In this document: one piece after another, positions 21,980 to 47,330 of the stretch
Layout of the letters: each line of letters opens with the position of its first letter
How positions within the stretch are numbered: the first letter of the stretch is position 1
Notes under the pieces: model-generated
The model's database searches: none
What the model saw: the letters and a program-made list of their open reading frames with translations, nothing else
What the model was told of the DNA's origin: nothing
DNA from: Magnetococcales bacterium WMHbinv6
GTDB lineage: Bacteria > Pseudomonadota > Magnetococcia > Magnetococcales > Magnetaquicoccaceae
Assembly: GCA_002753135.1 (NCBI GenBank)
Contig: PDZV01000023.1
Location: 1-60,904, forward strand
DNA length: 60,904 bases
Direction: 5' to 3'
Position numbers and translations under genes: made by a program

Positions 21980-22800
21980 CCATTCGGCTCCTGACGTTGA
22001 AAAATCATCAGGGCCATATGTCCCGCCCACTTGCCAAACATCAGATCGAGCGCCAACGCAAAAGCCCTGCCTATACCGAATGGCAAACCCAGCAGGCGAT
22101 CCAACCATTTTTCTGTCCAAGGCCACTCTTCTTTGCAGGTGCGCACCACACTTTGCCCCCACTGCGACACCAGGCGAAAGCCCGCTGCTTCCACCTGGCG
22201 TCGCACCACCTCTGTCGGCAACATATATTGGTAAAAGGTTTCCCTGCTCTGTGCATCCTCATGAAACGGAGGGTAGGCTCCTTTGGCCGCTTGGCGACGC
22301 CGAATAACATTCATGGCCGGAAAGGTCAAAAAAAGATAACCGGAGGGACGAATCGTCCGCGCCATCTCTTGCAGCACCGCAGCATAGCCGTCATAAAAAT
22401 GTTCGATAACACCGAGGGACCAATAGCCGTCAAAAAAACGGTCGGCAAAGGCCAATTGGCGAATATCCTGGCAAGAAAGAGGCAAATGCGGCCAATGGCG
22501 ATGCACGGTGCTGACGGTTGCCAGGCTGTAATCAACACCGTAAGCCTCATAACCGGCACGCGCCAGGGCATGCACGGTCAGCGCCAGACCACAACCGGCA
22601 TCAATCACCCGCCCCCCTGTCGGAAGATAGCGCTTGGTCACATAGAGAAAACTGTGATAAGCGGGAGGGTGGCGGAACAGATCTCCTGCCTGTTGCAGCG
22701 ATTGTTGCCAATGGGCCGACCAGAAGGAGGCGTCACACCCCGCCTGCAGGCAGACAATGCGCCCGGTCGTGGCATCAAAATAGCGTTCGGTCACCGGCAA
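21976..22800 (-). CDS. Class I SAM-dependent methyltransferase
   Basis: 274 aa with a Rossmann-like methyltransferase core: motif I VIDAGCGLALTVHALAR near residue 66, acidic loop YGVDYS, motif around SCQDIRQLAFADRFFDGYWSLGVIEHFYDG, and FLTFPAMN. The pattern fits the Methyltransf_11/UbiE-like group that works on small or glycan substrates. It lies 12 bases after one GT4 gene and is ATGA-coupled to the next, so it probably methylates the growing oligosaccharide or its lipid. Confidence 0.83.
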   Translation of the reverse strand: MPVTERYFDATTGRIVCLQAGCDASFWSAHWQQSLQQAGDLFRHPPAYHSFLYVTKRYLPTGGRVIDAGCGLALTVHALARAGYEAYGVDYSLATVSTVHRHWPHLPLSCQDIRQLAFADRFFDGYWSLGVIEHFYDGYAAVLQEMARTIRPSGYLFLTFPAMNVIRRRQAAKGAYPPFHEDAQSRETFYQYMLPTEVVRRQVEAAGFRLVSQWGQSVVRTCKEEWPWTEKWLDRLLGLPFGIGRAFALALDLMFGKWAGHMALMIFQRQEPNG

Positions 22801-22812
22801 CTCCTCCCTGCA

Positions 22813-24057: not shown

Positions 24058-24199
24058 GGCAATTTGTGGCAACGATAGATGTTGGTGACGATGGAAATGT
24101 TTTTCTTAATCTTGCAATGGATGTTATATTATTGCAACAGCTTAATGATGTGATGCACTGCCTGTCACCCAAGAGGGTTATTGGAAGGATAGTTGACGG

Positions 24200-25708
24200 A
24201 TGGGTATTCCCGACACAGCGGGTCAAAAAATTTTTTGCCTGTTTCTTGGCCTGTTTTTGATCGGTGGCACTCCCTCGCTGTCCGCCTCTGATCTGCTTTA
24301 CCGGGAAAAAGACCCGCATCCGGCCAGCAACAAACCGACACGGCAGGAGTGGCTGAAACTGATTCGGGAACAGATTCCCCCTCTGAGCCAGGAACGAGGC
24401 AAGCGGTGGCCTCTGGTCTCCTTTGCCTTGATTGGTTCCGAAGCCTATTCGGATGAAGAGATACAGCTGTTGTCGGCGCGGGGCATCGCACCCCTGCTTA
24501 CGCTCAGTATCGATTCGTTACCGGCAGCCCGTCGCTTGCAGGCAAAAGGGGTACCGGTGATTCTTTTTGATGGCCGCAACGGTGCCTGGCCCTACTCCCT
24601 GGAAGCAGACAAAACAGAATGGGCACATCAATATCCTGCCCAATTGCAGATCAATCCGCAATGGCGCGAACTGCCGGTTCCCACACTGTTTCGCGGCTGG
24701 GCCCTGGCTGCGGAACAATTGCGTACCACCTTAAAAAAATGGCGCAAGGAGGGTGTGAACGTCGACGCCATCTGGCTGGATTATGAAAACGAACCCAGTC
24801 AAGCCGACTATTATGCTGCCATTCTTTCTCCCTCCAGTCGCGCCCTGCTGCCGGAAAAAGCCTTGCTGGATGAATCCACTTTTCGCGCCTATTGCCGACA
24901 ACTGTGGATTCAGCTGCTTTCGAGTTATGTTGCCGGGCCAGCACGGGAAATTTTTCCTGCTCTCTCCATCACCAACTGGGTTGTGACCCTCTCTTCCAAA
25001 GAGATACCCGTATTGGGATGGCAAAACGAACCCCATCCGCCTTTGGGCAGCTCACTTTTCACCACCACCAACCCGGTTGCCTACGGCATTGATACCGCCT
25101 TTTTGGCATTATGGCAAAAATCCTACCCGCTGGATCGGGAACATGTGGATCAATTTTACAGCCATCTGTTGCTGCGCCAGGTCTCTGCCGACAGTGCCAA
25201 CCGGCAGAAACAAGCCCCCTATCTGGACGCCGTGCCGTGGGTCGCCCGCTGGGTTGCCGACCATCCGGAACAAAAAGTGCCGATCATGAGCCGGGAACGT
25301 TATCGGGAAATTTTGCGTCACCTGTGGCTGCGCGGCGTCGCTGGCATGCAGATTTTCAATCCGGTCAACAAAGCCGATCAAGTCGGCATGGCAGTTGCCG
25401 AACTGCAGGATGCGGTTGCTGTCTACGATGAAATGTTGGCCTACCGGCCTTTTCTCGACAAGGGCACCCCCATGCAGTTATCCATTCCAGAGATACAGGC
25501 CGATGGGGTCATCTGGTCCGGCTTGCGGCTGAACAACGAAGCCATTGTCCGGCTGTTCTGGCAAGGTCCCCATATCGGCTCCCTGACCATCGAAGCCTGG
25601 CCAGAAGGTCGGGTTACCTTGCTTGCACCGACGCGAGGAGCCACTTTCCATCTCCGTTTCAATCCGGAAGGAAATACGGTGCAAATTGTTTCCGTGAAAG
25701 CGCAATGA
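24200..25708 (+). CDS. Secreted protein of unknown function, possibly a TIM-barrel glycosidase
   Basis: 502 aa. Residues 1-30 form a signal peptide (KIFCLFLGLFLIGGTPSLSA). The mature part has alternating strands and helices: PLVSFALIGSE, IAPLLTLSID, VPVILFDGRN, then VDAIWLDYENEP near residue 195. Asp-x-Glu at the end of a strand (LDYENEP) is how hyaluronidase-like glycosidases place their catalytic acid, and the rest could be an (alpha/beta)8 barrel. I do not recognise a named family, so hydrolase activity is a guess. It is ATGA-coupled to a Sel1 protein, which is in turn GTGA-coupled to a FecR repeat protein. The three are probably one unit working outside the cytoplasm. Confidence 0.6.
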   Translation: MGIPDTAGQKIFCLFLGLFLIGGTPSLSASDLLYREKDPHPASNKPTRQEWLKLIREQIPPLSQERGKRWPLVSFALIGSEAYSDEEIQLLSARGIAPLLTLSIDSLPAARRLQAKGVPVILFDGRNGAWPYSLEADKTEWAHQYPAQLQINPQWRELPVPTLFRGWALAAEQLRTTLKKWRKEGVNVDAIWLDYENEPSQADYYAAILSPSSRALLPEKALLDESTFRAYCRQLWIQLLSSYVAGPAREIFPALSITNWVVTLSSKEIPVLGWQNEPHPPLGSSLFTTTNPVAYGIDTAFLALWQKSYPLDREHVDQFYSHLLLRQVSADSANRQKQAPYLDAVPWVARWVADHPEQKVPIMSRERYREILRHLWLRGVAGMQIFNPVNKADQVGMAVAELQDAVAVYDEMLAYRPFLDKGTPMQLSIPEIQADGVIWSGLRLNNEAIVRLFWQGPHIGSLTIEAWPEGRVTLLAPTRGATFHLRFNPEGNTVQIVSVKAQ

Positions 25709-26739
25709 ACGGGCTGACCTTTTTCTTGCTGCTCTGGTTGCTGACCCTTGCCCCCGCTGCCACGGGCAGTGAGACGATTGAGCCGATCAATTGGCCATCC
25801 CTGACCGACCGCGCCGAACGAGGCGATGTCATCGCCCAATTTTCCCTTGGCTATGCAGCGCTGCATGGAGAAGGGGTTGATCAGGATCAAGAAAAGGCGA
25901 TCCATTGGCTGGAAAGAGCGGCCAAACAAGGGTATCCCCTGGCACAGATCAAAATGGCTGAACTGCATGCCACAGGCAGCGGGGTGGAAACTGATCCAGA
26001 AAAGGCCATGGCATGGTATCGCAAAGCCGCCGAACAAAAGGCAGCTGCGGCACAGTTTGCCTTGGCAGAACTGTTGTGGCAACATCCAGGCAGCAGCCAA
26101 AACAAAACAGAGGCGGTGTATTGGTACCGCCAAACAGCGCAACAGGGATTTATCGCTGCCATGGTACGTCTGGCGACCATTTTGCGTCGCGGCGAAAGCG
26201 GACAAAGCGACCCGGTGGAGGCGGAAAAATGGTATCGCAAGGCAGCCGACTCTGGCAATATCACTGCCAAGCTGGCCTTGGCCTACATGTATTATAATGG
26301 TGACGGCGTCAGCCGTGATCTGCGATCTGCCCTGGAATGGTATCGACAGGCGGCAGAACTCGGCAGCGGTGACGCACAGCTGCAACTGGCCTATTTGTGC
26401 TATAATGGCTACGGCATCCCAAAAAACGACAAAATGGCGCTCCATTGGTTTGCCCAGGCGGCAGAACAAGGATTGACCGAGGCGCAATTGAACCTGGCCG
26501 GACTCTATTTGCGCGGCCATGGCACGGCAATCAACTACAGTGAAGCCTATATCTGGTTTAACCTGGCGGCAACAGGAGAAGAGTCCAACGAACTGACCAA
26601 ACGGGCACAGGCAGGCCGCGCCATGGCAGCCCGTCATCTTAGCCGTGAGCAACTCGCTGAAGCGCAACACCAGGCAGAAAAACGGTTCATCAAGCAACAA
26701 AGGTTGACCCATTCCAACACGCGACAGGAACTACCGTGA
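25705..26739 (+). CDS. Secreted Sel1-repeat protein with 7 repeats
   Basis: 344 aa. A signal peptide (FFLLLWLLTLAPAATG) is followed by seven Sel1 units (for example GDVIAQFSLGYAALHGEGVDQD, GNITAKLALAYMYYNGDGV, GSGDAQLQLAYLCYNGYGI). The C-terminal cap AYIWFNLAATGEESNELTKRAQ matches that of the large Sel1 protein at 4779. Sel1 proteins serve as adaptors between periplasmic or membrane partners. The start overlaps the stop of the upstream secreted protein gene (ATGA), and its own stop overlaps the GTG of the FecR gene. The likely partners are those two neighbours. Confidence 0.85.
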   Translation: MNGLTFFLLLWLLTLAPAATGSETIEPINWPSLTDRAERGDVIAQFSLGYAALHGEGVDQDQEKAIHWLERAAKQGYPLAQIKMAELHATGSGVETDPEKAMAWYRKAAEQKAAAAQFALAELLWQHPGSSQNKTEAVYWYRQTAQQGFIAAMVRLATILRRGESGQSDPVEAEKWYRKAADSGNITAKLALAYMYYNGDGVSRDLRSALEWYRQAAELGSGDAQLQLAYLCYNGYGIPKNDKMALHWFAQAAEQGLTEAQLNLAGLYLRGHGTAINYSEAYIWFNLAATGEESNELTKRAQAGRAMAARHLSREQLAEAQHQAEKRFIKQQRLTHSNTRQELP

Positions 26740-29700
26740 CAATCCGGCGCACAAAATGGCGGTCTATCAGTATTGCGATCCTGTTGCTGGGAGATGGCAT
26801 CGTTCTGGCCGACAATCCGGCCAAAGAAGAGCCACCCCGGCATATTGGTCGCGTACAACAACTGACGGGGCAGGCGTTCGGACGCATCGACCGTGCCGAA
26901 CCGAACGCGCTTGCCGCCAATGCGGAGCTGTTTGCCGGAGAAGAGATCACCACGCGCGCGCAATCCTCGCTCACGATTCAGTTTCGCGACGGCACCACCC
27001 TCTCCGTGGGACAGGATGCCAAAATCATTTTGGATCACTATCTTTTCAACCCCACAGCCAGCAATATTCAGAATACCGTTCAGGTCGATAAAGGGGCCTT
27101 TCGTTTTACTTCTGGCATGCCCGCCAAGCAGAGCCATGTCAACCTGAAAACACCAAACATCATGATCGGGGTGCGCGGCACCGTCGCCGAAGGGGTGGTA
27201 GATGAAAATCTGCCCACCTTTATTGCCCTGCCCAAGGGCGAAGGCACGTTGAGCAATGGTTCGGGCAGTCAGGCCATCAACGAAGGGGAAGCCACCGCCG
27301 CGTTGACGCAACAACAATCGCCAACCACAGCGGATGCCATGCCGGCAGAGGTCACCGCACAGGCGATTCAATTTCTCAATGCCCAATTTCCCGCCGCCGC
27401 TCTTGCCCCTGTTGCCTTGACCGAGGCACAACAATTGGCGGATGCCATGGCCAACCAGGCCACGCTCGCCCAGCAAAAAATGGCCCGCAAAGCGCCTCCG
27501 CCGACGACTCAGGGAGAAAACCCGTGGCTGCGCTGGTTGATTCATCGACTGGTTGAGTGGATAAATACGGTCATTGATCTGTTTGATGCCGTTGATCGAT
27601 GGTTGTTTTCTGAACTGCGACGGAGTTGGCAAGAGGTCTCCTGGCTGCAAAGCGCCTGGGCGGCAAAAGAGAGTGCGGAGGTTTCTGCTTTGTCTTTGCT
27701 GGTCAAAGCCAAGAGTGCCGGTTTATTGAGCCGTGATCCGGCGGTCAGCAAAGAGGTTCAGCAACAGCGTTTGCAAACCTTTCGCAAAGAGGCAGAGCGG
27801 CAACTGCCCAATGCGGCTGCCATTATCGGTCAGCATCAGCAGCAACAGAGCCGCAATAACATGCAAAACATGCAACAAAGCACAGGCAGAGTGATCAGCA
27901 ACGCGGCAAAAGTGGTGCGCGATGGTGTTGATCTGGCGGCCATTGTCCATCCGGTGATCGGCACCTCGGCAGGCAAATCAGAGGAGATGGTACGTATCGT
28001 CATCAGCAGCGCCCTCTCCGTCCCCGGCAAAACGGACAACGGCAAAATGGCTGGTCAAGTGGTGGCAGCCGCCTGTCAGGCCAACCCGGCGGTTGCTGCC
28101 ACAGCGGCAAGCAGCGCCGTTGGCGCGATTCCTCCCGGCAAGGAGCGCACGGCGGCATCACCCATGATTGCCGGCATTGCGGCCAAACTTGCGCCCAAAG
28201 AGGCGACCCGTATTGCCTCTGGTGTGGCAACTGTGGATAAAGCGTCGGCAAGCAGCATCGCTGCCGCCGTCACGGCGGTAGCCAAAGAACACGCGGTCGG
28301 TGTGGCCACCGCCATTGTGCAGGTGGTGGGGGCGGAAAAAGCTGCCGAAGTGGCCGCTGTTGTCGCCCGCCTGTTGCCCGCCAAAGAGGCCGCCAGGTTG
28401 GCCGGGGCAGTGACACGTGTTGCCGGAGACAAGGCAGCTGCAGCCATTGCCACAGCGGTTGCCAAAGTGGTCGTGCAGGAATCGAAAGAGATTGTCGGTT
28501 CGGTCATGCTCTCCATGGAAAACCGCGCTGCCCGCATCATTGCCGAAGTGGCGGTCGCCGTCGCCTCAGCAACCGACAAAAAAGATTTAACCGCTCTGAT
28601 GCCGTCGGTGGCACAAGCCACCGGCGTCAGCATGGAGCAAGTCAAAGCGGCCATGGAAGCGGCCAAAAGTTCCCCAGCCGTCCAGGAGGCACTGGCAGCG
28701 GTTGAACAGATTGCCGCCAAAGCGGAACAGATGGAAAAATTGGTGCAAGAGGTCAAACAACAAGCTGCGGCCATGGAACAGATCGGGCGTGATCTGGAAC
28801 AGCGCCGACAGGAAGCCGACACCCCCGCCGCTAAAGGAACCGGCGATACACCTGGCGCAGCACCAGCGTCAGACAAGGAAGAGTCCCGCGAACCAGACAA
28901 TTCCAGCAACAAAGGGAGCGAAGCACCCACCGACCGCAGCAGCAATCAATCCGATACACTCAAGCAACAGATCGCCCAGGCTGTGGCCAGCGGCCAGTCG
29001 GTGACCGAGATATTACAGACCGCCATGCGTTCCGGCACCCTCTCTCCCGAACAAGCGGTTGCCGCCGCCATGCGTGCTGGCATGGATCCGGGAGCGGTAA
29101 CCCAGGCAGCTGTGGCGCTGGGTGGCAATGCCGCCGCAATTGTGGCGGCGGTCATTGATGGCGGTGGTTCAGCGGCAGCCGTTGCCGCCGCAGCCATCAA
29201 GGCCGGTGCCAATCCAGATACAGTTTTGACCTCGGCTCTCAATGCAGGAGGCAAAGCCGGTGAAGTAGCCGTTGCCGCCATGGAAGCGGGCGGCAGCAGC
29301 GATCAGGTGATTGCCATGGCCATGCAGGGGGGGGTACAAGCAGAACGGATCATGGTCATCGCCACGCAACATGGTCAGGACACGGCAACCGTGGTCCAGG
29401 CCATGGTCCGTTCCGGCGGCAATATTCAGCAGATAATCGAATCGGCTGTACGGACCGGTGCCGATACAGGAAGCGTGGTCAGTGCGGCAATCAGTGCCGG
29501 AGCCGACGCACGACAAACCGTCAGCGCCATGATCCAATCGGGCGGCAATGTGGCTCAGGTGGCGGCGGCAGCCGTGCGTGCCGGAGCCAACGCTGGAGAA
29601 ATCGCCTCGGGAGCAATCAGCGCCGGTGGTGATGTGGGCACGGTGGTCAGCGCAACCATTGCTGCCGGAGGCAGCGTTCTCGATGTGGTCACCGCTGCCG

Positions 29701-29849
29701 GAGCCCTGGCCCCGAATCAAGTGCAAAAAGCGGTTGAATCGGCCATTGCCGTCGGCGCTGATCCGACTGCAGCGCAGGAAGCAGGGGCCGCCAGTCGCAC
29801 TCAAGAGATGCAACCCATTCAACCTGTCAAATCACCAAGCCCCTCTTGA
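26736..29849 (+). CDS. FecR-domain protein with long Ala-rich 14-residue tandem repeats
   Basis: 1037 aa from a GTG that overlaps the upstream stop. A signal peptide lies at residues 1-25. A FecR domain at about 65-165 shows GRVQQLTGQAF, LFAGEEITT, IQFRDGTTLSVG and TPNIMIGVRGT, the form found in secreted FecR proteins rather than sigma regulators. A linker with Trp-rich WLRWLIHRLVEW follows. Residues about 480-590 contain loose 16-residue Ala/Val repeats. Then comes a coiled, Glu/Gln-rich segment (640-695), an acidic low-complexity hinge, and about 16 tandem repeats of 14 residues (about 745-995) of the form G-[GA]-[ND]-x3-[VI]-x2-A-[AM]-[VIM]-x-A. No enzyme motif is seen. Probably a large periplasmic or surface structural protein. 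The 3' end overlaps the FemAB-like gene by 23 bases. Confidence 0.75.
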   Translation: MTIRRTKWRSISIAILLLGDGIVLADNPAKEEPPRHIGRVQQLTGQAFGRIDRAEPNALAANAELFAGEEITTRAQSSLTIQFRDGTTLSVGQDAKIILDHYLFNPTASNIQNTVQVDKGAFRFTSGMPAKQSHVNLKTPNIMIGVRGTVAEGVVDENLPTFIALPKGEGTLSNGSGSQAINEGEATAALTQQQSPTTADAMPAEVTAQAIQFLNAQFPAAALAPVALTEAQQLADAMANQATLAQQKMARKAPPPTTQGENPWLRWLIHRLVEWINTVIDLFDAVDRWLFSELRRSWQEVSWLQSAWAAKESAEVSALSLLVKAKSAGLLSRDPAVSKEVQQQRLQTFRKEAERQLPNAAAIIGQHQQQQSRNNMQNMQQSTGRVISNAAKVVRDGVDLAAIVHPVIGTSAGKSEEMVRIVISSALSVPGKTDNGKMAGQVVAAACQANPAVAATAASSAVGAIPPGKERTAASPMIAGIAAKLAPKEATRIASGVATVDKASASSIAAAVTAVAKEHAVGVATAIVQVVGAEKAAEVAAVVARLLPAKEAARLAGAVTRVAGDKAAAAIATAVAKVVVQESKEIVGSVMLSMENRAARIIAEVAVAVASATDKKDLTALMPSVAQATGVSMEQVKAAMEAAKSSPAVQEALAAVEQIAAKAEQMEKLVQEVKQQAAAMEQIGRDLEQRRQEADTPAAKGTGDTPGAAPASDKEESREPDNSSNKGSEAPTDRSSNQSDTLKQQIAQAVASGQSVTEILQTAMRSGTLSPEQAVAAAMRAGMDPGAVTQAAVALGGNAAAIVAAVIDGGGSAAAVAAAAIKAGANPDTVLTSALNAGGKAGEVAVAAMEAGGSSDQVIAMAMQGGVQAERIMVIATQHGQDTATVVQAMVRSGGNIQQIIESAVRTGADTGSVVSAAISAGADARQTVSAMIQSGGNVAQVAAAAVRAGANAGEIASGAISAGGDVGTVVSATIAAGGSVLDVVTAAGALAPNQVQKAVESAIAVGADPTAAQEAGAASRTQEMQPIQPVKSPSPS

Positions 29850-30804
29850 ACACCCATTCGCCGATCAACCGATAGGGGGTTCCGTTCAGACCCGCCTTGA
29901 AATGGCGGATTCCCTCTGCCGTTGCTTCGTTGACCCCACCCAGATCAAAGCAGGCCATGCCCTGTAAACGGGCATGCAGCATGGCTTGCCAGAGCAACTG
30001 GTAATTGCATAACCGTTGCCGTCCCTGCTCGTTGCTGGCCCCGATCAGATAGGTTGCCGTGTCACCATGATGGATGGTCACCACCACACCGATCCACAGA
30101 TCAGGCGCTTCCGGCAAAAAACAGGAAAAAAGGTTCCATTGCCAGGTAGGGGCAGATTGTCGCGCCAGCGTGTGCAGAAAACGCAGATCAATGCCGGTGA
30201 ATTCTTTTTGTTGCACAAAGTCGCTATAAAACGCAGTGAAGCGTGGCCAGCAGGCGGTTGCCGTCTCCAAACGGACCTCCACACCTTGCCGTTCGCTTTT
30301 GCCCAGCAGATTGCGCCACTTGCCAGACAAGCACCCGCGCAGCGTTGCCACCTCCTGCTGCAGCAGGAGTCGATGTGAGCCCCAGGCAGGAGCCTCTTTT
30401 TGTCTGTAATAACCGTGTTGCTCCAACAAAAAAGAGAGATCTGCCTGGTCCGGCATGGCAAACGCCGCTTTCAGGAAGCGGCAACGGTGGCTGTGCAGCC
30501 TCTGCCGCAGGGCAGTCAAAAAGTGGCCCTGCTCTGTCAATGTCCAGGAGGGGCCGCACACGATTGGCCCTCTGTTGATGCGCGCCACCCCACCCACCCA
30601 GGGTAACGACCAGCTCAACATCTGCAACAGACCACGAACACTACCCTGCTGATCAGAAATGGCAAAGCGGTGGCAACGACAGAGATAGCGTTGCGCCATG
30701 GCCGAGCCGTATTGCCAACTCTGCGTCAGCGAACAGTGGACAGCCTGCTGCCAGTAGCGCTGCCACTGAACGGCATCCAACGCCTGCAAAGACCATTCAG
30801 TCAT
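29827..30804 (-). CDS. FemAB/GNAT-like protein (peptidoglycan bridge or EPS-associated)
   Basis: 325 aa of the FemAB/Acetyltransf_6 fold. N-terminal SWQYGSAMAQRY and LPWVGGVARINRGPIV, central GLLQMLSWS, then YLIGASNEQGRQRLCNYQLLWQAMLHARLQGMACFDLGGVNE, and GIRHFKAGLNGTPYRLIGEW. The LIGAS...LLWQAM...G...FDLGG sequence is the hallmark of FemAB-like transferases. In EPS loci such proteins are thought to transfer amino acids or acyl groups. The ATG at 30804 overlaps the upstream deacetylase gene by eight bases. It is another candidate partner for the adenylation/carrier pair at 15618 (speculative). Confidence 0.75.
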   Translation of the reverse strand: MTEWSLQALDAVQWQRYWQQAVHCSLTQSWQYGSAMAQRYLCRCHRFAISDQQGSVRGLLQMLSWSLPWVGGVARINRGPIVCGPSWTLTEQGHFLTALRQRLHSHRCRFLKAAFAMPDQADLSFLLEQHGYYRQKEAPAWGSHRLLLQQEVATLRGCLSGKWRNLLGKSERQGVEVRLETATACWPRFTAFYSDFVQQKEFTGIDLRFLHTLARQSAPTWQWNLFSCFLPEAPDLWIGVVVTIHHGDTATYLIGASNEQGRQRLCNYQLLWQAMLHARLQGMACFDLGGVNEATAEGIRHFKAGLNGTPYRLIGEWVFKRGLVI

Positions 30805-31687
30805 GGCGTGGCAACGGGCAGGGAGAAGAGAAAAAATATTTGACCTGATAGTTGCCCCACCAGGCACATAAATGGTCACGACGAATCCTGTACGGATCCC
30901 CTCCGCGACAATTTGCCCCCCTTTCTGAGGTCAGAAACGATTGAAACCCCTCCTCCGCCGCCAGCATCGGTTCAACATTCGGGCGAAAATCGATCAGTGG
31001 TCGCCCGACAGGACAAGCAATGTGAGGCACATCACGACCAAGATGTTGTTCGATATCGGCACGACAGCCCCGCATCTCCTGCCGGATCTCCTCAACCGAC
31101 AGGCAGGTTAAATTGCGATGGGTACGAGTGTGGGCAGCAATCGTCATACCCGCCGCCTGCAACAGCCGACAATCCTCCCAGGAGAGAAAGGGAACCATCA
31201 ACTGTTGTGGCACAAAACCAAAGATGCGCTGCAACAACGCCCTGTCCGGCACCAGTGCCGCTGCGTCTGGGTCAACATGGCTTGTTTGCAGGCGGGAAGC
31301 GGCATCGGCCAGGGCGGAAACGATAAAAAAGGTTGCGACACATTGCTGCTCCTGCAAAATGGGCAAGGCGTTGGTCAAACAGTTGCGGTAGCCATCATCA
31401 AAAGTCACGCAAAAATAGTGACCGTCGATTATCTGCCCGGAACGCAACAACCCAACCGCTTCATCCAGCGCAATAAATTCCCCAAAATTTCTTAGGTATT
31501 TGAGTTGTCGTGCAAAAGCAAGACGTTCATCATCAAAAACGTGATGGTAACAGGCAAATCGAATGGCTGGCTGGCGCTTGGCCATGGAGGCGGGCAAAGA
31601 AAGAAAAAACAGCGCACTGTCGCGCAGCAGGGAACGGGCTCTCCGTGCCCATGAGTAATGCTTGACGAACTGGGCATAATGGGTCAT
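30797..31687 (-). CDS. NodB-domain polysaccharide deacetylase
   Basis: About 296 aa. The NodB core reads FCVTFDDGYRNCLTNALPIL (catalytic Asp pair), then MTIAAHTRTHRNLTCLS (metal His pair H-x3-H) and a late CPVGRPLIDFRP motif in place of the usual Arg motif. It begins with a basic and hydrophobic stretch (RDSALFFLSLPASM) that may anchor it to the inner membrane. These enzymes remove N-acetyl groups from exported polysaccharide, which then carries free amines. Start taken at ATG 31687; no good ribosome site is visible. Coupled to the FemAB-like gene and divergent from the large EPS operon. Confidence 0.83.
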   Translation of the reverse strand: MTHYAQFVKHYSWARRARSLLRDSALFFLSLPASMAKRQPAIRFACYHHVFDDERLAFARQLKYLRNFGEFIALDEAVGLLRSGQIIDGHYFCVTFDDGYRNCLTNALPILQEQQCVATFFIVSALADAASRLQTSHVDPDAAALVPDRALLQRIFGFVPQQLMVPFLSWEDCRLLQAAGMTIAAHTRTHRNLTCLSVEEIRQEMRGCRADIEQHLGRDVPHIACPVGRPLIDFRPNVEPMLAAEEGFQSFLTSERGANCRGGDPYRIRRDHLCAWWGNYQVKYFFSSPCPLPRHD

Positions 31688-31755
31688 AACGGAATGGACT
31701 GTCACTGCTTTTACCCTGTCAGCCCGATGCAATCGGCCCACGGACCGCGATTAAT

Positions 31756-35023: not shown

Positions 35024-35076
35024 CTGACTCTGAGCGTGCAAATCAATCGTCGCAAACAAATTTCCACGGTTAATGG

Positions 35077-36638: not shown

Positions 36639-36651
36639 AAAGGGAATGGCC

Positions 36652-38957: not shown

Positions 38958-38971
38958 AACGGGACCGTTCC

Positions 38972-40012
38972 ATGCCACCCCATTCCCTGCCCTGGCTCAC
39001 TATCGGTTCGGCGATGGCGGTCACCCTGCTGCTGTTGGCGGTTGGCATTCCCTTTGCCCACCGGGTCGGTTGGCTGGACTACCCCAATGAACGCAAACCG
39101 CACCAGATTCCCGTCCCGATGGTGGGCGGAGTTGCCATGTTCGGCGGTCTGCTGGTCGGCGGCACACTGCTTGATGCCGCCGCTTACCCGGTAGTGGTGC
39201 TGGGGCTTGCCGCCACTCTGGTGGTCATCCTGGGCTGCCTGGATGATTGCCGCACCTTGTCAACCCGCATCCGCCTGCTCTCTGAACTGCTGATCGCCCT
39301 GTTGTTGATCGAATGGGGTGAAATCCGTGTCCTGGCACTGGGCAATCTGCTTGGTACCGGCCCTCTTTTTTTGCAGGGTTGGTCTGCACCATTCACCGCA
39401 CTCTGTTTTATCGGTACGGTCAACGCCATCAATATGTCGGATGGCTCAGACGGCCTGGCCGCTGGACAAACTTTTGTTTCGTTACTCTGCATGTTGGCCA
39501 TGGCGGTTTGGTGGCAACAAGGGCAGGAAGCAAGCATGCTGCTGTTGGTGATAATGGTTGTCTTCTCCTTTTTACTGTTCAACGCCCCACTCACGCCCCG
39601 TCGCACAGCCCTGACCTTTATGGGGGATGCGGGCAGCAAACTGTTGGGACTCGCTCTTTTTCTGTTTACCGTGCATTTGTCACAAAAACCGGAACCGCTT
39701 TTTTCGCCTGTTACCGCACTCTGGCTGTTGGCACTGCCATTGATGGAGCTGTTTGGCAGCATTTTACGCCGTTTATTGGGGCATCAATCCCCTTTTCATG
39801 CCGACAAAGGGCACATCCACCATCGCCTGCAACGACTCGGTTACAACAAACGGCACATTTTTTTCCTGCTGACCGGTTTTTCGCTGCTTTGTGCCGCAGT
39901 TGGCTGTGCCGCCTTTCTGCTCGGCGTGCCTGACTATCTCATGTTTTACGGCTTGCTGTTGCTGTTTGCCGGTTACTGTTGGTTTGTGACACGCCACCAT
40001 GTATCGGTATAA
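38972..40012 (+). CDS. Undecaprenyl-phosphate HexNAc-1-phosphate transferase (WecA/MraY family)
   Basis: 346 aa, about ten membrane helices. It carries the PNPT signatures: PHQIPVPMVGG near residue 44, LGCLDD near 88, NAINMSDGSDGLAAG near 150, FMGDAGSKLLG near 215 and the HADKGHIHHRLQRLG loop near 275. These residues bind Mg and the UDP-HexNAc donor. The enzyme starts repeat-unit synthesis by moving a HexNAc-1-phosphate to undecaprenyl phosphate on the cytoplasmic face. This is the only clear priming enzyme in the window, so it probably serves the long EPS operon. GlcNAc versus GalNAc cannot be told. Confidence 0.88.
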   Translation: MPPHSLPWLTIGSAMAVTLLLLAVGIPFAHRVGWLDYPNERKPHQIPVPMVGGVAMFGGLLVGGTLLDAAAYPVVVLGLAATLVVILGCLDDCRTLSTRIRLLSELLIALLLIEWGEIRVLALGNLLGTGPLFLQGWSAPFTALCFIGTVNAINMSDGSDGLAAGQTFVSLLCMLAMAVWWQQGQEASMLLLVIMVVFSFLLFNAPLTPRRTALTFMGDAGSKLLGLALFLFTVHLSQKPEPLFSPVTALWLLALPLMELFGSILRRLLGHQSPFHADKGHIHHRLQRLGYNKRHIFFLLTGFSLLCAAVGCAAFLLGVPDYLMFYGLLLLFAGYCWFVTRHHVSV

Positions 40013-41378
40013 ATATTGCATAGATAAACTCGTCATCAGCTGCCGGGCTGCCTGCCTGTCAGAAAGTTGTTTGCCATTTTGGGGAGTGGTGGTGCTTGCG
40101 GGCTGCTTGATCGCCAACGACGGTGCGTCTGCTCAAGCAGAGAATGCAGAGAAAAATGAGCGCGAAAACAATCATGAACAGCGTCCTGCAGACACCTCGA
40201 CGTGGAGTCACCCCGAAGAGACGAGCGGCGCGATCGCCATGCCGAAACCAGGGCGTGCGGGCAACCCACCGCCCAGCAAGGGGGTACCGATTGGTGGTGT
40301 GCGCCTCTCCCCGGAAGTTTCGCTGACGACGCGCTGGGACGACAACATTTACAAAACAGCAACCAATTTGCGTGCGGATGTGCTGACGCAACTGAAAACC
40401 GTGATCAAAGTCTTGAACCGATGGGCACAACATCAGGCCGACCTGACCTATTCCGCCACCGTCCGCCGCTACCAGGTGGTGCAAACGGAGAATAATGTGG
40501 ATCAGCAGATCAGTCTGAATACCAAGCTGGCTCCTTCAAGATTGCTTGATGTGGAGTTGGGTTACAGTCGCTCTTTTGAGAACGATGAACGTGGCACCCC
40601 TGGCAAATCTGCCAAGGTGACGGTCCCTGGGTCGACACAACCACTGGGACCCAATGCCTGGTTGCAAGACAGCTTGCGGGAAACGGCGCGGATCAAGTTG
40701 CGACGCCTGACCACGGAGATCAAGCTGGAACAGTCGGACAGAAGTTCGCAAAACAATGGGCAGTCGCATTTGGATCGATACTGGTTTGATAATGGGATAC
40801 TTTTCAGGTGGGCTCTCTCACCCAAAACCAACCTGCTGCTTGACATGGGACGAAAAGAGACCACCTACAACCGATCACCAAAAATGGACAGTGTCGAAAC
40901 ACGCCTGCTGACCGGTGTCAATTGGAAAGTAACGCCACAAACAGAATCGCAAATTAAAGCCGGGTTGACCAACAAAACGATGGTCAATAACCAGGGAAAA
41001 AGCAGCCTGAACGCCACATGGGAGGCCAATCTCATCTGGCAACCAAGCAGTCGGACCCGCATCAACCTGACCAGTCGTCGCAACACCCAGGATAGCGAGG
41101 ATTTGACAGAGAGTTTTATCGCAACGACAATTCAGGGCAATGTGGATCATACCGTCAGTGGCAACTGGCATCTGTTGCTTGGTTTGGAAAATATTAGCAA
41201 TGCCTATGATACGGGAAAAAATGAGCAGTTCATGACCGGCAAGATCGGTATGGAATACCGCTTGTCCAACCATTTGGTCATCGCCACTGAAGTGGTGAAC
41301 AAAACCAAGGATACCACTGTCAAAGGTACGGAATTCAACAGCCATGCCGTGCAACTTTCTCTCACCGGCTCAATGTAG
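39999..41378 (+). CDS. Outer-membrane beta-barrel protein of the EPS operon
   Basis: 459 aa. An N-terminal signal-like segment (FWGVVVLAGCLIANDGASAQA) is followed by a polar linker and, from about residue 105, many alternating amphipathic strands (LSPEVSLTTRWDDNIYKTATN, DLTYSATVRRYQVV, LLDVELGYSRSFEND, KTNLLLDMGRKETTYN, LVIATEVVNKTKD). The WDDNIYKT opening resembles BBP2-type barrels found beside EPS exporters. The chain ends AVQLSLTGSM without a terminal aromatic residue, which is unusual. A lipobox-like LAGC is present, so a lipoprotein is possible. It may be the outer-membrane partner of the Wza-like protein two positions on. Confidence 0.65.
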   Translation: MYRYKYCIDKLVISCRAACLSESCLPFWGVVVLAGCLIANDGASAQAENAEKNERENNHEQRPADTSTWSHPEETSGAIAMPKPGRAGNPPPSKGVPIGGVRLSPEVSLTTRWDDNIYKTATNLRADVLTQLKTVIKVLNRWAQHQADLTYSATVRRYQVVQTENNVDQQISLNTKLAPSRLLDVELGYSRSFENDERGTPGKSAKVTVPGSTQPLGPNAWLQDSLRETARIKLRRLTTEIKLEQSDRSSQNNGQSHLDRYWFDNGILFRWALSPKTNLLLDMGRKETTYNRSPKMDSVETRLLTGVNWKVTPQTESQIKAGLTNKTMVNNQGKSSLNATWEANLIWQPSSRTRINLTSRRNTQDSEDLTESFIATTIQGNVDHTVSGNWHLLLGLENISNAYDTGKNEQFMTGKIGMEYRLSNHLVIATEVVNKTKDTTVKGTEFNSHAVQLSLTGSM

Positions 41379-41383
41379 AGAGG

Positions 41384-41548
41384 GTTAAGGAACCTAGCAA
41401 AAATAGCTTGGACATCTTGCTTGTCTTTTGCTCCTCCTGCGTCGTTGCAAAAACGTTTACATACTAAAAGTATGCGCACGTTTTTCGCCTGGCAGGAGGA
41501 GCAAAATCCGGCGCAATCTGCACAAGTTATTTTCGCCAGGCTCCTAAC
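41384..41548. repeat. 165-bp imperfect palindrome (MITE/REP-like element)
   Basis: The outer ends match as inverted copies: 41384-41411 (GTTAAGGAACCTAGCAAAAATAGCTTG) pairs in reverse complement with the stretch ending CAAGTTATTTTCGCC...CTCCTAAC at 41523-41548. Inside are perfect 15-base arms, TTTTGCTCCTCCTGC at 41426-41440 and GCAGGAGGAGCAAAA at 41492-41506, then AAAAACGT/ACGTTTTT and a CATAC-TAAAA-GTATG tip at 41460-41474. The whole segment can fold as one long hairpin. It has no coding potential and separates the barrel gene from the Wza-like gene. It looks like a small repeat element or a processing/attenuation hairpin. Confidence 0.75.
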
Positions 41549-41608
41549 GGTTTGCTGGTTGACATGGCAGCCCCAAAGGCCAGCCGCTTGTAACACAGGA
41601 GAACATTC

Positions 41609-42781
41609 GTGAACCACACCCGTTGCTGGCAACCAGCAGAAAGAAAGAAGCTGCCCGTTTGGGCACAATGGCTTCTGCTGCTGGCTGTTCTCCTGTGTGG
41701 TCTGTCTCTCTTGTCGGCATCTTTTGCTGCTGAAGAGGGTTTTGTCGAGCTGCCAAGCGCCGACAGCAAAGAAGATCAACCCGTTGCTGATTCGACTCCC
41801 CCCTCCCCCGTAAAGCCAAAACCAGCTTCATCCCTCGAAAATTACCGGATCGACGTGGGTGACAGCCTCATCATCGCTGTCGAGAACGAACCGGATCTGA
41901 CCACACAACAAACTGTTTCCAAGCAGGGAAAAATCACACTGCCCATGCTGGGTGAAGTCGTTGCCCTGGGTTTTTCCAGAACGGAACTTGCTGAAAAAAT
42001 TCGCCAATTATTGATGGATGGTTTTGTTCGTCATCCGCTTGTGAAGGTAACCATCGCCAAATATCCAGATTTTCATGTCCATGGCGAGGTGCGCAAAAGC
42101 GGTCGCTTTTCCTACCAGCCCGGCATGACAGTACGACGGGCGATAAGCCAGGCCAACGGCTTCGGTGTATTTGCCGACATCAAACGGCTCTCCATTACCC
42201 GCCGGAGCAGCTCTGGCTGGGAATTGATCGCCTTGGTCAACCTGGAAGATTCTCTCCTGCCAAAGGATATTCTGCATGTCCCCATGGCAACCACTCAGCA
42301 GGAAAACACGGAAGCCTCTGAAACAGCCCACCGCATCGGCTTAGGCGACAAAATTAAAATCACCGTGGAAAATGAACCCAACCTGGGGATCGATACGCGG
42401 GTATCTCCCCAGGGCAGCGTCAATATGCCACTGATCGGCGAGATACGCATTCTCAACCTGACGGCCAAAGAGGCCGAAGAGACCATTCGCCAACGTCTGG
42501 CAGATGGCTTTCTGGTCAACCCCAACGTTTCTGTCGCCATTGCCGAATATCGGGTCTATTATTTGTATGGCGAAGTCAAAAAAGCAGGTGGTTATCCTTT
42601 TCAACCCGGGTTGACCGTTCGCAAAGCGATCGCCCTGGCAGAAGGGTTTACCGATTTTGCCGACAAAAAGGATATTCGCGTCGTTCATGATGATGATCCG
42701 ACCTTCAAAGAGAAACAAATTGGTTTGAACGATCCGGTATTCCCCGGCGATGTCATCCAAGTTACTGCCAGTTTCTGGTGA
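41609..42781 (+). CDS. Polysaccharide export protein (Wza-like) with two tandem Poly_export-SLBB units
   Basis: 390 aa starting at a GTG with AGGAGA seven bases upstream. A signal peptide (WLLLLAVLLCGLSLLSASFA) is followed by two copies of the export unit: residues about 76-225 (YRIDVGDSLIIAVENEPDLTTQ, TLPMLGEVVALG, HGEVRKSGRFSYQPGMTVRRAI) and about 240-388 (HRIGLGDKIKITVENEPNLG, NMPLIGEIRILN, YGEVKKAGGYPFQPGLTVRKAI). Wza-type proteins form the periplasmic and outer-membrane export channel. The signal region lacks a lipobox and no C-terminal amphipathic helix is seen, so the outer-membrane part may come from the barrel protein at 39999. It is followed by Wzc. Confidence 0.87.
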   Translation: MNHTRCWQPAERKKLPVWAQWLLLLAVLLCGLSLLSASFAAEEGFVELPSADSKEDQPVADSTPPSPVKPKPASSLENYRIDVGDSLIIAVENEPDLTTQQTVSKQGKITLPMLGEVVALGFSRTELAEKIRQLLMDGFVRHPLVKVTIAKYPDFHVHGEVRKSGRFSYQPGMTVRRAISQANGFGVFADIKRLSITRRSSSGWELIALVNLEDSLLPKDILHVPMATTQQENTEASETAHRIGLGDKIKITVENEPNLGIDTRVSPQGSVNMPLIGEIRILNLTAKEAEETIRQRLADGFLVNPNVSVAIAEYRVYYLYGEVKKAGGYPFQPGLTVRKAIALAEGFTDFADKKDIRVVHDDDPTFKEKQIGLNDPVFPGDVIQVTASFW

Positions 42782-42785
42782 CACG

Positions 42786-45254
42786 ATGACGCCGACCCGC
42801 TCCTCTCTTTCGCAACAGCTCCCTTTTTTGGAACAAAATCTGGAAGGTGCGCTGACCCATAGCAACCCGAACACCCTCTTGAAGGCCAATGCCGCCGAAG
42901 AGGAGACGGGAATACGTCTGCTCTACTATTGGCATGTGATATTGCGCCACAAATGGAAGGTGCTGATGGTCACCTTTCTGATTACCGTGGCCACCGCCTT
43001 GCACCTGTCTACGCAGATTCCCATGTTTCAGGCGACCACGGTTTTGTTGATCGAACAGAGCAAAGGCAAAGTGGTCTCCATTGAAAACATATACAGCACC
43101 GATTACAGCTCGCAAAGTTACATGCAAACCCAGGTGGAATTGATGAAAAGTCGCCACCTCATCGAAGAGGTGGTACGGTCGGAGCGTCTTGATCAAGTGC
43201 CGGAATTCAATGAACAGTTTCAAAAAAAACGGGCCAACTGGACCCAACATCCCTGGATCCCGCAATGGGTGCGCACCTATCTGCCGATTGTCCCGGAACC
43301 GGCGGCATCAGAGAACGAAAACGCCTCCGAACAAAACAGCACCGCCCGTTTTTCCTCTCTGGTCGGCACGATCATTTCCCGCATTACGGTAACACCGGTG
43401 CGCAACAGTCAACTGGTCAATTTGTCCTTTGTTTCAGAGTCGCCGGAACTGGCGGCCAAGGTGGCAACCAGTATTGCCCAAAACTATATCGACCAGATGC
43501 TGGAAGCCCGCCTGAAAATGACACAAAATGCCGCCAACTGGCTGATGAAACGTCTGGAAGGTCTCCGTCATACGCTGGAAGAGTCGGAACGCAAACTGCA
43601 GGAATACCGTACCAGCACCGAAATGTTGGGCTCCAGCGAAGAGGAGAGCATGGACACGCAACTGCTCTCCAGCCTCAACAATCAAGTCATGCAGGCACGT
43701 TCACGCCGCAGTGAAGCGCAGGTTCGTTACGAACGGTTCCAGTCACTGATGGAAGAGTACAAAAATCACCCGGAAGATTTACCGATCCGTGACAATCCGA
43801 TGGTGGACAATCTGCTGAAAGATGCCTCCAAACTGAGCATTCAACTGACGGAACTCTCCAGTCGCTACGGAGAAAAACATCCGCAAATCATCCGCGCGAA
43901 AACAGAACTGACTGAAATTCGCCACAAAATCGCCAAAGAGGCGGAACGTGCCTTTGCCGGCAGCAAACATGATTACATGATCGCTGTACAACAACAAAAC
44001 AAGGCAGAACAGCAACTGGCCGAACAAAAAGAGTCGTTGCAGGAGTACCGCAAACGGGCCTTCGCTTTGGGCAACCTGGAGCGAGACGTCCAGGCAAACC
44101 GGCAACTGTACGAACTGTTTCAGAAACGATTCAAAGAGACCGGGGTCAGCGAAGGCATGGAACCGGAAAATGCCCGGATCATCGATCCGGCCAAACCCCC
44201 GCAAAGCAGTTTTACGCCCAACAAACGCCGCTCTCTGAGTTTAGCCATCGTTGCCGGTTTGCTGATTGGTATCGGACTGGCCATCCTGCTGGAAAGCATC
44301 GACCGTACCGTACAAAGCCCGGAAGATTTGGAACTGTCGATCGGCCTGCCCATTTTGGCCACTTTGCCCAAACTGTTTGCTTCTACCCGTCGTCCGATTT
44401 CCCCGGAAGGGATGATGATCAATCAGCCCAACTCTCCCTATTCAGAGGCGGTGCGGGCGGTGCGTACCAGCATTGTGCTGACCATCGAGCAACCGCCTCA
44501 GGTCATTACGGTCACCTCTTCCATTCCCCAGGAAGGCAAAACAACGGTCAGCATCAATCTGGCGCGTGCCTTTCATTTGGCGGGCGAACGGGTTTTGCTG
44601 ATCGAAGCGGATATGCGTAAACCAAGAATGAATAAATATTTTAACCTGGATCTGGAATCAGAAGGGAGTATCAATCGCCTCCTGCAGGACTTGAACCGCT
44701 GGAACCAGGATGAATCATCTCCACTGGTCTCTGCCAGCAATGGTCCCCCTTCTGCCGCTGAAATGCGAGCGGTACAAAAGGAGATTACCCAGTCACGCGA
44801 TGGTATTCATCTTTTGATCTGTCATTCTCATCAATCCAATCCCAGTGAAGCGTTGGCTTCCAAAAAATGGCAGCGTATTTTAACAGTGCTTCGCCAGGAA
44901 TATCACCGCATCATCATCGATTCGCCTCCTGTCCTGGCTGTCACGGATGCCCGTATTTTGGCCACTCAATCGGAAGGGGTCGTCTTTGTGGTCATGGCTG
45001 GCCGTACGCAACGCAATCTGGTCCGTACTGCCGTCCAACAAATGTCACGGGTCAAGGCCAATCTGCTTGGCATGGTATTGAATACCGTCGATACCCGTAA
45101 ACCGCTTCGTTACGGCAGTAAACAAGGGTATGGCGGCGGTTATGGCTATGGCTATGGCTATGGTTACGGCTACGGTTATGGCTACGGTTACGGGAACACA
45201 AAAGAAGATCAGGATCATGCTGCACATGATGGTGAATCCCAGCCTCTCGCTTAA
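42786..45254 (+). CDS. Polysaccharide co-polymerase / tyrosine autokinase (Wzc-like)
   Basis: 822 aa. N-terminal Wzz domain with membrane segment VLMVTFLITVATALHL, periplasmic coiled coil with GNVR-type LGNLERDVQANRQLYELF, and second membrane helix LSLAIVAGLLIGIGLAILLE. The cytoplasmic BY-kinase has Walker A SIPQEGKTTVS near 580, Walker A' LLIEADMRKPR near 607 and Walker B IIIDSPPVLAVTD near 712. The C-terminus is a Tyr cluster made of about ten Gly-Tyr dipeptides (782-804), the site of autophosphorylation that controls oligomer cycling and chain length. ATG 42786 is chosen over 42750, which lies inside the upstream gene. Confidence 0.92.
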   Translation: MTPTRSSLSQQLPFLEQNLEGALTHSNPNTLLKANAAEEETGIRLLYYWHVILRHKWKVLMVTFLITVATALHLSTQIPMFQATTVLLIEQSKGKVVSIENIYSTDYSSQSYMQTQVELMKSRHLIEEVVRSERLDQVPEFNEQFQKKRANWTQHPWIPQWVRTYLPIVPEPAASENENASEQNSTARFSSLVGTIISRITVTPVRNSQLVNLSFVSESPELAAKVATSIAQNYIDQMLEARLKMTQNAANWLMKRLEGLRHTLEESERKLQEYRTSTEMLGSSEEESMDTQLLSSLNNQVMQARSRRSEAQVRYERFQSLMEEYKNHPEDLPIRDNPMVDNLLKDASKLSIQLTELSSRYGEKHPQIIRAKTELTEIRHKIAKEAERAFAGSKHDYMIAVQQQNKAEQQLAEQKESLQEYRKRAFALGNLERDVQANRQLYELFQKRFKETGVSEGMEPENARIIDPAKPPQSSFTPNKRRSLSLAIVAGLLIGIGLAILLESIDRTVQSPEDLELSIGLPILATLPKLFASTRRPISPEGMMINQPNSPYSEAVRAVRTSIVLTIEQPPQVITVTSSIPQEGKTTVSINLARAFHLAGERVLLIEADMRKPRMNKYFNLDLESEGSINRLLQDLNRWNQDESSPLVSASNGPPSAAEMRAVQKEITQSRDGIHLLICHSHQSNPSEALASKKWQRILTVLRQEYHRIIIDSPPVLAVTDARILATQSEGVVFVVMAGRTQRNLVRTAVQQMSRVKANLLGMVLNTVDTRKPLRYGSKQGYGGGYGYGYGYGYGYGYGYGYGNTKEDQDHAAHDGESQPLA
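45130..45196 (+). repeat. In-frame Gly-Tyr hexanucleotide repeats in wzc
   Basis: GGCTATGG(C/T)TA(T/C) units are repeated about ten times, encoding the Gly-Tyr tail of the tyrosine kinase. Each 6-base unit adds one Gly-Tyr pair and keeps frame, so slippage would change the number of phosphorylatable tyrosines without breaking the gene. Confidence 0.7.
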
Positions 45255-45936
45255 ACCCTTTGCGCAATGGGGTATTGTGCTTGTTTTTGCCGGATTGTGT
45301 TTTTGGTCAGGCAAATGGGGGTTGGCTGCCATCTATTCCTATCCGGCACAGATGTTGGTTGACTACTGGTCTGCTCAACAGAAGAGAGGACAGCCCGTTA
45401 ACAATGAACGCTGGCAATCAGCCTATGCCGCACTGCGCCAAGCACAAGCGCTGGCACCGGATGATGCCGATATACGGTTTCTGATCGGACAAATGCACCA
45501 TTATCAGGCAATTGGCCAACCTGCCTGGTCGGCAATTGGCAAAAAACATTGGCAACAGGCGCTGGAAGCCTATCACACAGCAGTCAGCTTGCGCCCCACG
45601 TGGGGTTACGCCTGGGGCCTTCTCGCCCAAGCCAAATTGCAATCTGCGGCCCCGATTGCACAAGTCACGGCTGATTGGCAACGGGCCATCACCTGTGCCC
45701 CCCACTCCTTTGATACCTATCAAATTTCCATGCAGATCGGATTTGCCCTCTGGCCACTGTTGTCTGATCAGCACCGCCAGCAAGTCAAATACGCTATCGC
45801 GCAACTGTTTGCCCGACAAGGCGATCATATCATTCAACTGGCAAGCAAATTTCATCACCTGGAACTGCTACAACCTCTATTGCAACAGAATCCCCAATGG
45901 CAAAAGCAGTACGACGCCGCTCTGCAAGCGAAATAA
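45226..45936 (+). CDS. Membrane-anchored TPR-like protein of the EPS operon
   Basis: About 236 aa. One N-terminal membrane helix (FAQWGIVLVFAGLCFW) is followed by a helical region with TPR-like units: WQSAYAALRQAQALAPDDADIRFLIGQMHHYQA, then KHWQQALEAYHTAVSLRPTWGYAWGLLAQAKL. The remainder is helical without clear motifs. Overlaps the end of wzc by 29 bases in another frame; ATG at 45226 is chosen because the codons before it read through the wzc repeats. Such small TPR proteins accompany O-antigen ligase-type genes in EPS operons and may help position the polymerase. Function is inferred from position only. Confidence 0.65.
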   Translation: MMVNPSLSLKPFAQWGIVLVFAGLCFWSGKWGLAAIYSYPAQMLVDYWSAQQKRGQPVNNERWQSAYAALRQAQALAPDDADIRFLIGQMHHYQAIGQPAWSAIGKKHWQQALEAYHTAVSLRPTWGYAWGLLAQAKLQSAAPIAQVTADWQRAITCAPHSFDTYQISMQIGFALWPLLSDQHRQQVKYAIAQLFARQGDHIIQLASKFHHLELLQPLLQQNPQWQKQYDAALQAK

Positions 45937-47330
45937 GCCCACGCACCTCGTCGGTGGCTTGGCGATGGCTTTTTCGCGCCTATCTTTTGCTCCTGCTCTG
46001 GTTGCCGCTTCCCCTGGGGAGCAATCGAGCCTGGGCCTGGGCCTTGATGGAAATCAGCGTATTGTTACTGCTGATTACCTACTTGTTCGTACGTCAGAAA
46101 CCACCCGTAGAGCAAACGCTCTTGCCGCCGTTAAAAGCACCCCTGCTGTTGTTTCTTGTCGCCATTCTCTATCCGCTCTGGCAAACCATGCCACTTGCGG
46201 AACCGTTATTACAGATCTTGAGCCCCCATACACTCGCCACTCGACAATGGGCGGCCCTGCATCAGGGTGGCACCATCTCTTTGGATCTGCATGCCACCTG
46301 GGTCGAATGGCTGAAAGGAATCGCTTATGGCGGGTTGTTTGTGTTAACCTTGCTGTTGGTCAACTCCCAACGTCGTCTGCAAATGCTGATCTGGGTATTG
46401 CTGAGCAGTGGCGTGGTCCAGGTCTGTATCAGCCTGTTGCTTTTGAGCCTGAGCAGCAATTCCGATGTGCGGGGCAGTTTTGTCAATCGCAATCATTTGG
46501 CCGGTTTATTGGAATTGATCATACCCTTGACTGTGGGCGTGTTGCGGAACATCTCATCCCTGAGCGACTCCTCCTCGCTGGAACGTCAGCAAAGCCATGC
46601 CTGGTTGCGCTTTTTCTCCAGTTCATCAGGTGGTGTGGCCGGTGTCATGATGATTCTCTGGTTCACTCTGTTTTTGACGCAATCTCAAGGTGGTAATGCT
46701 GCCTTGATCTTCTCCTTTGTGGCTGTATGGACGCTTTCCCGCTTGACTGGCATGCGTCGGCAAGAAACTGTCAAGCGATCAAACATGATCTATTTGCTCC
46801 TGGCGTGTACTTTTATTCTGGGCGGCACTGCGGGCCTGGAAATACTGCTGGGGCGCTTTCTCGACACCAATCTGTTGCAGGAGGGACGTCTTGCCGTTCT
46901 GTTTACCGGCAAGCAAATCATCCTTGACTATCCCCTTTTCGGCAGTGGAAGTGGAACGTTTGCTTCTATTTATCCGCGCTATCAACCAGAAGCAATCGCC
47001 CATCTCTTTTTTGACCATGCCCACAACGATCATTTGGAACTCTTGGCAGATCGAGGAATCATCGGGTATGCTTTATTGGCAGGAACGGTGTTAACCTCTT
47101 GGCACCACATGCTGCGTTGCTATCGACACAGTCAACATCCCCTTGTCAGAGCAACCTGTTATGCTGCATTAGTCTCTACCATTTCACTGGTTATTCATGG
47201 TATATTTGACTTCAATTTTCAGATCCCGGCCAATGCAGCTTACTTTACGGTGATGTTGGCTCTTGGCTTGCGGTGCAGTCGGATGGAAAACTCAACACAC
47301 CCGTCCTCCCCTGATCACATGACGGCATAG
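45897..47330 (+). CDS. O-antigen ligase/polymerase family membrane protein
   Basis: 477 aa with about 11 to 12 hydrophobic helices. The signature VRGSFVNRNHLAGLLEL near residue 195 and LFGSGSGTFASIYPRYQPE...FDHAHNDHLELLADRG near 345-385 are the two conserved loops of the Wzy_C/WaaL superfamily; the second contains the functional HN(D)H region. It would polymerise repeat units or transfer the chain in the periplasm. The start overlaps the TPR-like gene by 40 bases. This is the second polymerase/ligase-type gene in the window; the first is at 9848, which suggests two different polymers or separate polymerase and ligase roles. Confidence 0.83.
   Translation: MAKAVRRRSASEISPRTSSVAWRWLFRAYLLLLLWLPLPLGSNRAWAWALMEISVLLLLITYLFVRQKPPVEQTLLPPLKAPLLLFLVAILYPLWQTMPLAEPLLQILSPHTLATRQWAALHQGGTISLDLHATWVEWLKGIAYGGLFVLTLLLVNSQRRLQMLIWVLLSSGVVQVCISLLLLSLSSNSDVRGSFVNRNHLAGLLELIIPLTVGVLRNISSLSDSSSLERQQSHAWLRFFSSSSGGVAGVMMILWFTLFLTQSQGGNAALIFSFVAVWTLSRLTGMRRQETVKRSNMIYLLLACTFILGGTAGLEILLGRFLDTNLLQEGRLAVLFTGKQIILDYPLFGSGSGTFASIYPRYQPEAIAHLFFDHAHNDHLELLADRGIIGYALLAGTVLTSWHHMLRCYRHSQHPLVRATCYAALVSTISLVIHGIFDFNFQIPANAAYFTVMLALGLRCSRMENSTHPSSPDHMTA

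Follow-up and report, generated by a model that had tools for sequence, protein, structure and literature searches.

The window analysed here is the 60,904-nucleotide contig PDZV01000023.1 (positions 1 to 60,904) of Magnetococcales bacterium WMHbinv6, an organism with a 3.84 Mb genome that is a relative of the magnetic coccus Candidatus Magnetaquicoccus, from the same genus in the order Magnetococcales. Three genes on its forward strand encode an apparently exported, enzyme-like protein of 502 residues (gene 1, 24200..25708), a putatively exported Sel1-repeat protein of 344 residues with seven repeats (gene 2, 25705..26739), and a putatively exported protein of 1037 residues that joins a FecR domain to helical repeats (gene 3, 26736..29849). 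This trio is a real, genus-conserved unit that brings together a Sel1 protein and members of two poorly known Magnetococcales families accessory to exopolysaccharide (EPS).

Genes 1 and 2 overlap by four nucleotides at an ATGA junction, and genes 2 and 3 by four at a GTGA junction; coordinates and junctions are exactly those of the original prediction, an earlier note made from the letters of the DNA alone. That note also assigned signal peptides to all three proteins, and a hydrophobic, Sec-type, signal-peptide-like segment can indeed be read from sequence at the start of each. The putative segments end in ...FCLFLGLFLIGGTPSLSA before SD for gene 1, MNGLTFFLLLWLLTLAPAATG before SE for gene 2, and ...SISIAILLLGDGIVLA before DN for gene 3, and inspection of these segments by eye found no lipobox cysteine. 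The trio lies, as described earlier, between two sets of EPS genes, one at 20816-24072 and the other at 29827-47330. Because the upstream neighbor, a glycosyltransferase gene (22813-24072, reverse strand), is divergent and the downstream neighbor, a FemAB/GNAT-like gene (29827-30879, reverse strand), is convergent, genes 1 to 3 probably form one transcription unit.

Distribution and gene order

Of 48 Magnetococcales genomes, 16 have homologs of gene 1; elsewhere in a 299-genome sample of the phylum none turned up. The order gene 1, Sel1, FecR is found in all six genomes of the genus that have gene 1, the host genome included, with identities of 46-77% across the six. In the two nearest relatives both junctions still show the four-nucleotide overlap, and that between the Sel1 and FecR genes is retained in at least four of five. 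In a seventh genome of the genus (G003, 96% complete), gene 1 is missing, and so are the full-length FecR type and the BBP2_2 beta-barrel protein. Beyond the genus the three genes no longer form a unit; the parts are found apart from one another, in most cases within or close to an EPS locus of the same kind. The neighborhood of the three genes is conserved within the genus, and the trio as such ends at its boundary. Gene 2 is a genus-level addition, fixed there in the middle position of the trio.

In the lineage labelled f13, gene 1 closes a run of WecA-like, BBP2_2, OPX, Wzc-like, hypothetical and Wzy genes. In f5 the run is OPX, Wzc-like, hypothetical, TPR-like, Wzy, FecR and gene 1, the names WecA-like and Wzc-like being assigned in both lineages from sequence similarity to genes of the window. 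These two different arrangements share the link to EPS, and in one f8 genome gene 1 lies within a glycosyltransferase-like cluster. The full-length FecR type was seen in 20 genomes, all of them Magnetococcales. Its members adjoin BBP2_2/OPX genes in f2, f5, f8 and f11 (a complete f11 genome included), and two more f8 genomes have the FecR gene beside a porin/OPX pair. With phylogeny ignored, BBP2_2 is present in 20 of the 20 genomes that have the FecR type vs. 6 of the 28 that lack it (Fisher 1.6e-8), and the FecR type is present in 14 of the 16 genomes with gene 1 (Fisher 6.7e-6). Genes 1 and 3 represent separate families, restricted to Magnetococcales in the genomes sampled and tied to a Wzx/Wzy-type export module with an OPX/beta-barrel translocon; the EPS link is well supported.

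The window carries such an export module at 38972..47330 on the forward strand, encoding a WecA-like transferase, a BBP2_2 beta-barrel protein, an OPX protein, a Wzc-like PCP/kinase, a TPR protein and a Wzy_C ligase/polymerase. The barrel gene (39999-41378) stands beside the OPX gene (41609-42781), the arrangement that marks a short-OPX/beta-barrel translocon. By size the window's OPX protein falls outside the short class (280 residues or fewer), having 390 residues and two complete tandem Poly_export/SLBB units. This tandem duplication recurs in all five same-genus relatives checked (L143-L147), and OPX proteins in other Magnetococcales lineages are single units of 184-221 residues. In its combination of BBP2_2, Poly_export/SLBB and PCP proteins the module resembles the EpsY/EpsX and VpsN/VpsM translocons (PMC9601211), from which it differs in having two OPX units rather than one. 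The same paper mentions neither FecR proteins nor glycoside hydrolases in connection with these translocons. Directly after the Wzy gene, the EPS run continues with a gene for a cytochrome c-domain protein (47331-48494). No alginate genes were found among the window genes scanned. On the other side of the trio, the reverse strand encodes two glycosyltransferases and a methyltransferase (20816-22162, 21976-22800 and 22813-24072); the genes that adjoin the trio downstream, also on the reverse strand, encode the FemAB/GNAT-like acyltransferase and a polysaccharide deacetylase (29827..31741).

The three proteins

Sequence and profile searches with gene 1 against Pfam, NCBIfam and PDB returned nothing above chance, and plasmids and viral contigs yielded no relatives. 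Residues W192, D194, E196 and P199 are invariant in 16 homologs, among many invariant positions that include polar ones, and the surrounding motif across these homologs is W-[LF]-D-x-E-[NG]-x-P. In this protein it reads W192-L-D194-Y-E196-N-E-P199 (24773..24796, forward strand) and supplies a DxE pair, a catalytic candidate, where the fourth predicted strand ends. The original prediction had pointed to LDYENEP as a possible catalytic site. D194 and E196 are the candidates that survive, because both are invariant while the second glutamate of that stretch, E198, varies among the homologs. At the end of strand 4, such a pair is known from families GH18, GH25 and GH56.

An AlphaFold model of gene 1, built from a four-sequence alignment, is poor (pLDDT 47, pTM 0.37). 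At that low confidence it has four or five strands with helices in beta/alpha order, plus a C-terminal beta domain, and D194 falls directly after the fourth predicted strand (residues 190-193). The top 50 PDB matches to the model are nearly all TIM barrels, among them alanine racemase, transaldolase, ornithine decarboxylase, GH53 and GH10, none of them significant (best E-value 0.029, none below 0.01). The TIM barrel suggested for this protein is unconfirmed as a fold and is predicted with low confidence. Two specific family assignments were tried and rejected. DUF3142 (PF11340) scored 14 bits vs. a cut-off of 30, with an hhalign probability of 0.3%, a weak test in that one DUF3142 row was read on the wrong strand; for GH31 (PF01055), hhalign gave a local match of only 23 columns. 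We predict, with modest confidence, that gene 1 encodes a glycoside hydrolase.

Gene 2 belongs to the Sel1-repeat family by its seven matching stretches (PF08238, 213.9 bits vs. a cut-off of 30.7); the host genome has 45 Sel1 matches in all. It is not the equivalog of either named Sel1 protein tested, scoring 57 bits vs. a cut-off of 700 for AlgK (NF038194) and 64.9 vs. 450 for ExoR (NF045484). Gene 2 is like AlgK, a Sel1-like periplasmic scaffold of alginate export, in being a Sel1-repeat protein in an EPS locus with detectable repeat similarity; it differs in falling far below the equivalog cut-off and in lacking a lipobox.

Gene 3 begins with its putative signal peptide and a FecR domain (residues 70-153, 26943..27194, forward strand; PF04773, 45.8 bits vs. 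a cut-off of 24). Short helices follow at roughly residues 425-645, then one long helix, possibly a coiled coil to judge from the model; a disordered linker leads on to 14-residue repeats, 19 in tandem (residues 746-1011, 28971..29768, forward strand). Each of these Ala-rich repeats is predicted as a 10-residue helix and a turn, with pLDDT mostly 74-87, so that together they would make an alpha-solenoid of single-helix units; the FecR part was modelled without confidence. Sequence identity at a period of 14 is 0.27 vs. 0.20 in the best of 1000 shuffles. Relatives in f13 have the same repeats, those in f2 and f8 have a period of 15, and one f11 relative has a period of 16. A FecR homolog at L102:6385-8910 shows a very regular 15-residue repeat (ITTAAVTAYPSSAAA-like), with a period identity of 0.49.

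The protein ends in KSPSPS (29829..29846, forward strand). An -SPS end is common to FecR homologs of five families, those of the genus, f13, f2, f8 and f5, despite differing sequence before it, and in f11 the ends are ASGN, ASAS or ASGS. The -SPS tag is possibly a sorting or docking signal. Comparison of the gene 3 model with PDB and viral structures gave no match with an E-value below 0.001, the top PDB entries being alpha-solenoids and designed repeats, and a sequence search with the C-terminal repeats found no relative in PDB.

Both a scaffold and an adhesin had been proposed for the repeat protein. The predicted alpha-solenoid looks scaffold-like, in agreement with the former; no adhesin feature was found for the latter. 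A weak match of residues 37-102 to the LapA-type retention model (NF033682) reaches 25.6 bits vs. a cut-off of 50, and gene 3 departs from such adhesins in having a Sec signal peptide instead of a type 1 secretion system (T1SS) signal, and a solenoid C-terminus ending in -SPS instead of an RTX end. Assignment as a FecR-type anti-sigma/TonB regulator, which would call for a cytoplasmic N-terminus, a single TM segment and an ECF sigma factor and TonB receptor encoded alongside, was also rejected, since a signal peptide shortly precedes the FecR domain and the neighbors are EPS genes. The LysM-FecR proteins of Burkholderia are likewise secreted FecR-domain proteins tied to biofilm (BiofilmReg, PMC5192318); gene 3 has no LysM domain and no two-component partners, and carries long helical repeats instead.

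Proposed function and alternatives

The trio is co-encoded and co-inherited in one genus, and the families of genes 1 and 3 recur at Wzy/OPX/beta-barrel loci. We tentatively favor the reading that the trio forms an accessory complex in the envelope that serves EPS processing and export on a Wzx/Wzy-type pathway. All three proteins would be exported to the periplasm or outer membrane. Gene 1 would be a (beta/alpha)8 glycoside hydrolase that cleaves nascent or retained polymer by means of D194 and E196, the Sel1 protein would couple this enzyme to the export machinery, and the FecR-solenoid protein would act as a long envelope scaffold, holding enzyme, polymer or both near the OPX/beta-barrel exit. 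The original suggestion that the proteins are secreted or periplasmic and have a link to EPS is supported, and the adjoining deacetylase and acyltransferase also speak for the favored reading.

Polymer-processing enzymes with repeat scaffolds are already known from synthase-dependent EPS systems. The likeness is closest to PgaB/PgaA and PelA/PelB, whose EPS operons provide a beta-barrel exit together with an exported hydrolase-like protein and an alpha/alpha-repeat scaffold; in PgaA/PgaB the enzyme becomes more active when the TPR scaffold binds it (PMC9384988). Those systems are synthase-dependent and combine a glycoside hydrolase, a TPR scaffold and a porin, whereas the pathway at the trio is Wzy-type with OPX/PCP proteins. 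The enzyme families are unrelated by profile and not homologous, the scaffold here would consist of the Sel1 and FecR-solenoid proteins, and no deacetylase domain is fused. The proposal would transfer the logic of hydrolase plus scaffold to a Wzy-dependent pathway, and such a counterpart, if true, is a new arrangement. It would also give a function to two families of magnetotactic cocci that are annotated only by the FecR domain. A literature search brought up no publication that treats FecR proteins in Wza/EPS loci, and none on Magnetococcales EPS genetics or the surface polymers of magnetotactic cocci.

Several results weigh against this reading. Besides the poor model of gene 1, that protein has no profile match to any glycoside hydrolase family, and its gene lies outside obvious EPS loci in three of 16 genomes (G019, G022 and G032). 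In f13 the FecR gene adjoins cytochrome c and TPR-CHAT genes, not the EPS module, and six genomes have the FecR type without gene 1. The co-occurrence tests, which leave shared ancestry uncorrected, serve only as support; the separate gene orders carry more weight. A bolder form of the proposal, which we consider rather unlikely, sees here an EPS finishing apparatus of the Magnetococcales' own, in which a new glycoside hydrolase family and a new class of exported FecR protein, with single-helix repeats of 14-16 residues and the -SPS tag, would process and tether polymer at the OPX/beta-barrel translocon. Single-helix repeats of this length that have a C-terminal tag in common make an unusual type of scaffold.

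The six genomes in which an EPS locus encodes the FecR protein and gene 1 is missing fit a different account, in which gene 1 is an idle polysaccharide-binding barrel, the FecR-solenoid protein a surface scaffold that retains EPS as a capsule or holdfast anchor, and the Sel1 protein an assembly factor. The FecR protein is long and repetitive and its repeat length varies by lineage (14, 15 or 16 residues), as in surface scaffolds, and the conserved -SPS could serve for sorting or attachment. We nevertheless judge surface display unlikely, since the conserved acidic pair and the many invariant polar residues of gene 1 suit an enzyme better than a binder, and neither a known anchor domain nor an outer-membrane signal was found. 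Alternatively, secreted proteins that are unrelated and share no function might merely have come to lie in one EPS region as a loose cluster at genus level, which would agree with the absence of the trio outside the genus and with the abundance of Sel1 genes in the host. The three genes nevertheless remain neighbors in six genomes at 46-77% identity, their overlaps kept where start sites are readable, and two of the three families are tied to EPS modules in other families, which makes a chance cluster quite improbable. A sensing role is very unlikely. The FecR domain would then respond to EPS or envelope state, with the Sel1 protein acting like ExoR and the unit controlling EPS output; Sel1 proteins such as ExoR do regulate EPS, gene 2 has weak NCBIfam similarity to it, and LysM-FecR proteins occur in a Burkholderia biofilm-regulating operon (PMC5192318). 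Against this stand the ExoR score, far under its cut-off, and the lack of any ECF sigma factor, anti-sigma domain or kinase in or adjoining the trio.

Other FecR-domain proteins

FecR-domain proteins also occur in further settings. At L090:5660-13788, L091, L092 and L098:7755-14619, a large TPR-CHAT gene, with a caspase-like domain, lies beside FecR-SPS genes, and at L090 a cytochrome c gene stands between the two. Loci L093-L097 encode paralogous FecR proteins of about 1300-2600 residues, most ending in a DGSIxLTP-like sequence; at four of these five loci the paralogs adjoin genes that read as MSHA-type pilus-like, for an AAA ATPase and a secretin-like lipoprotein. Giant frames of about 2000-9900 residues on G000:C10 and C51 (L140, L141) and on G003:C111 (L142) start with a related FecR-like domain; they have no evident Sec signal and look like T1SS adhesins.

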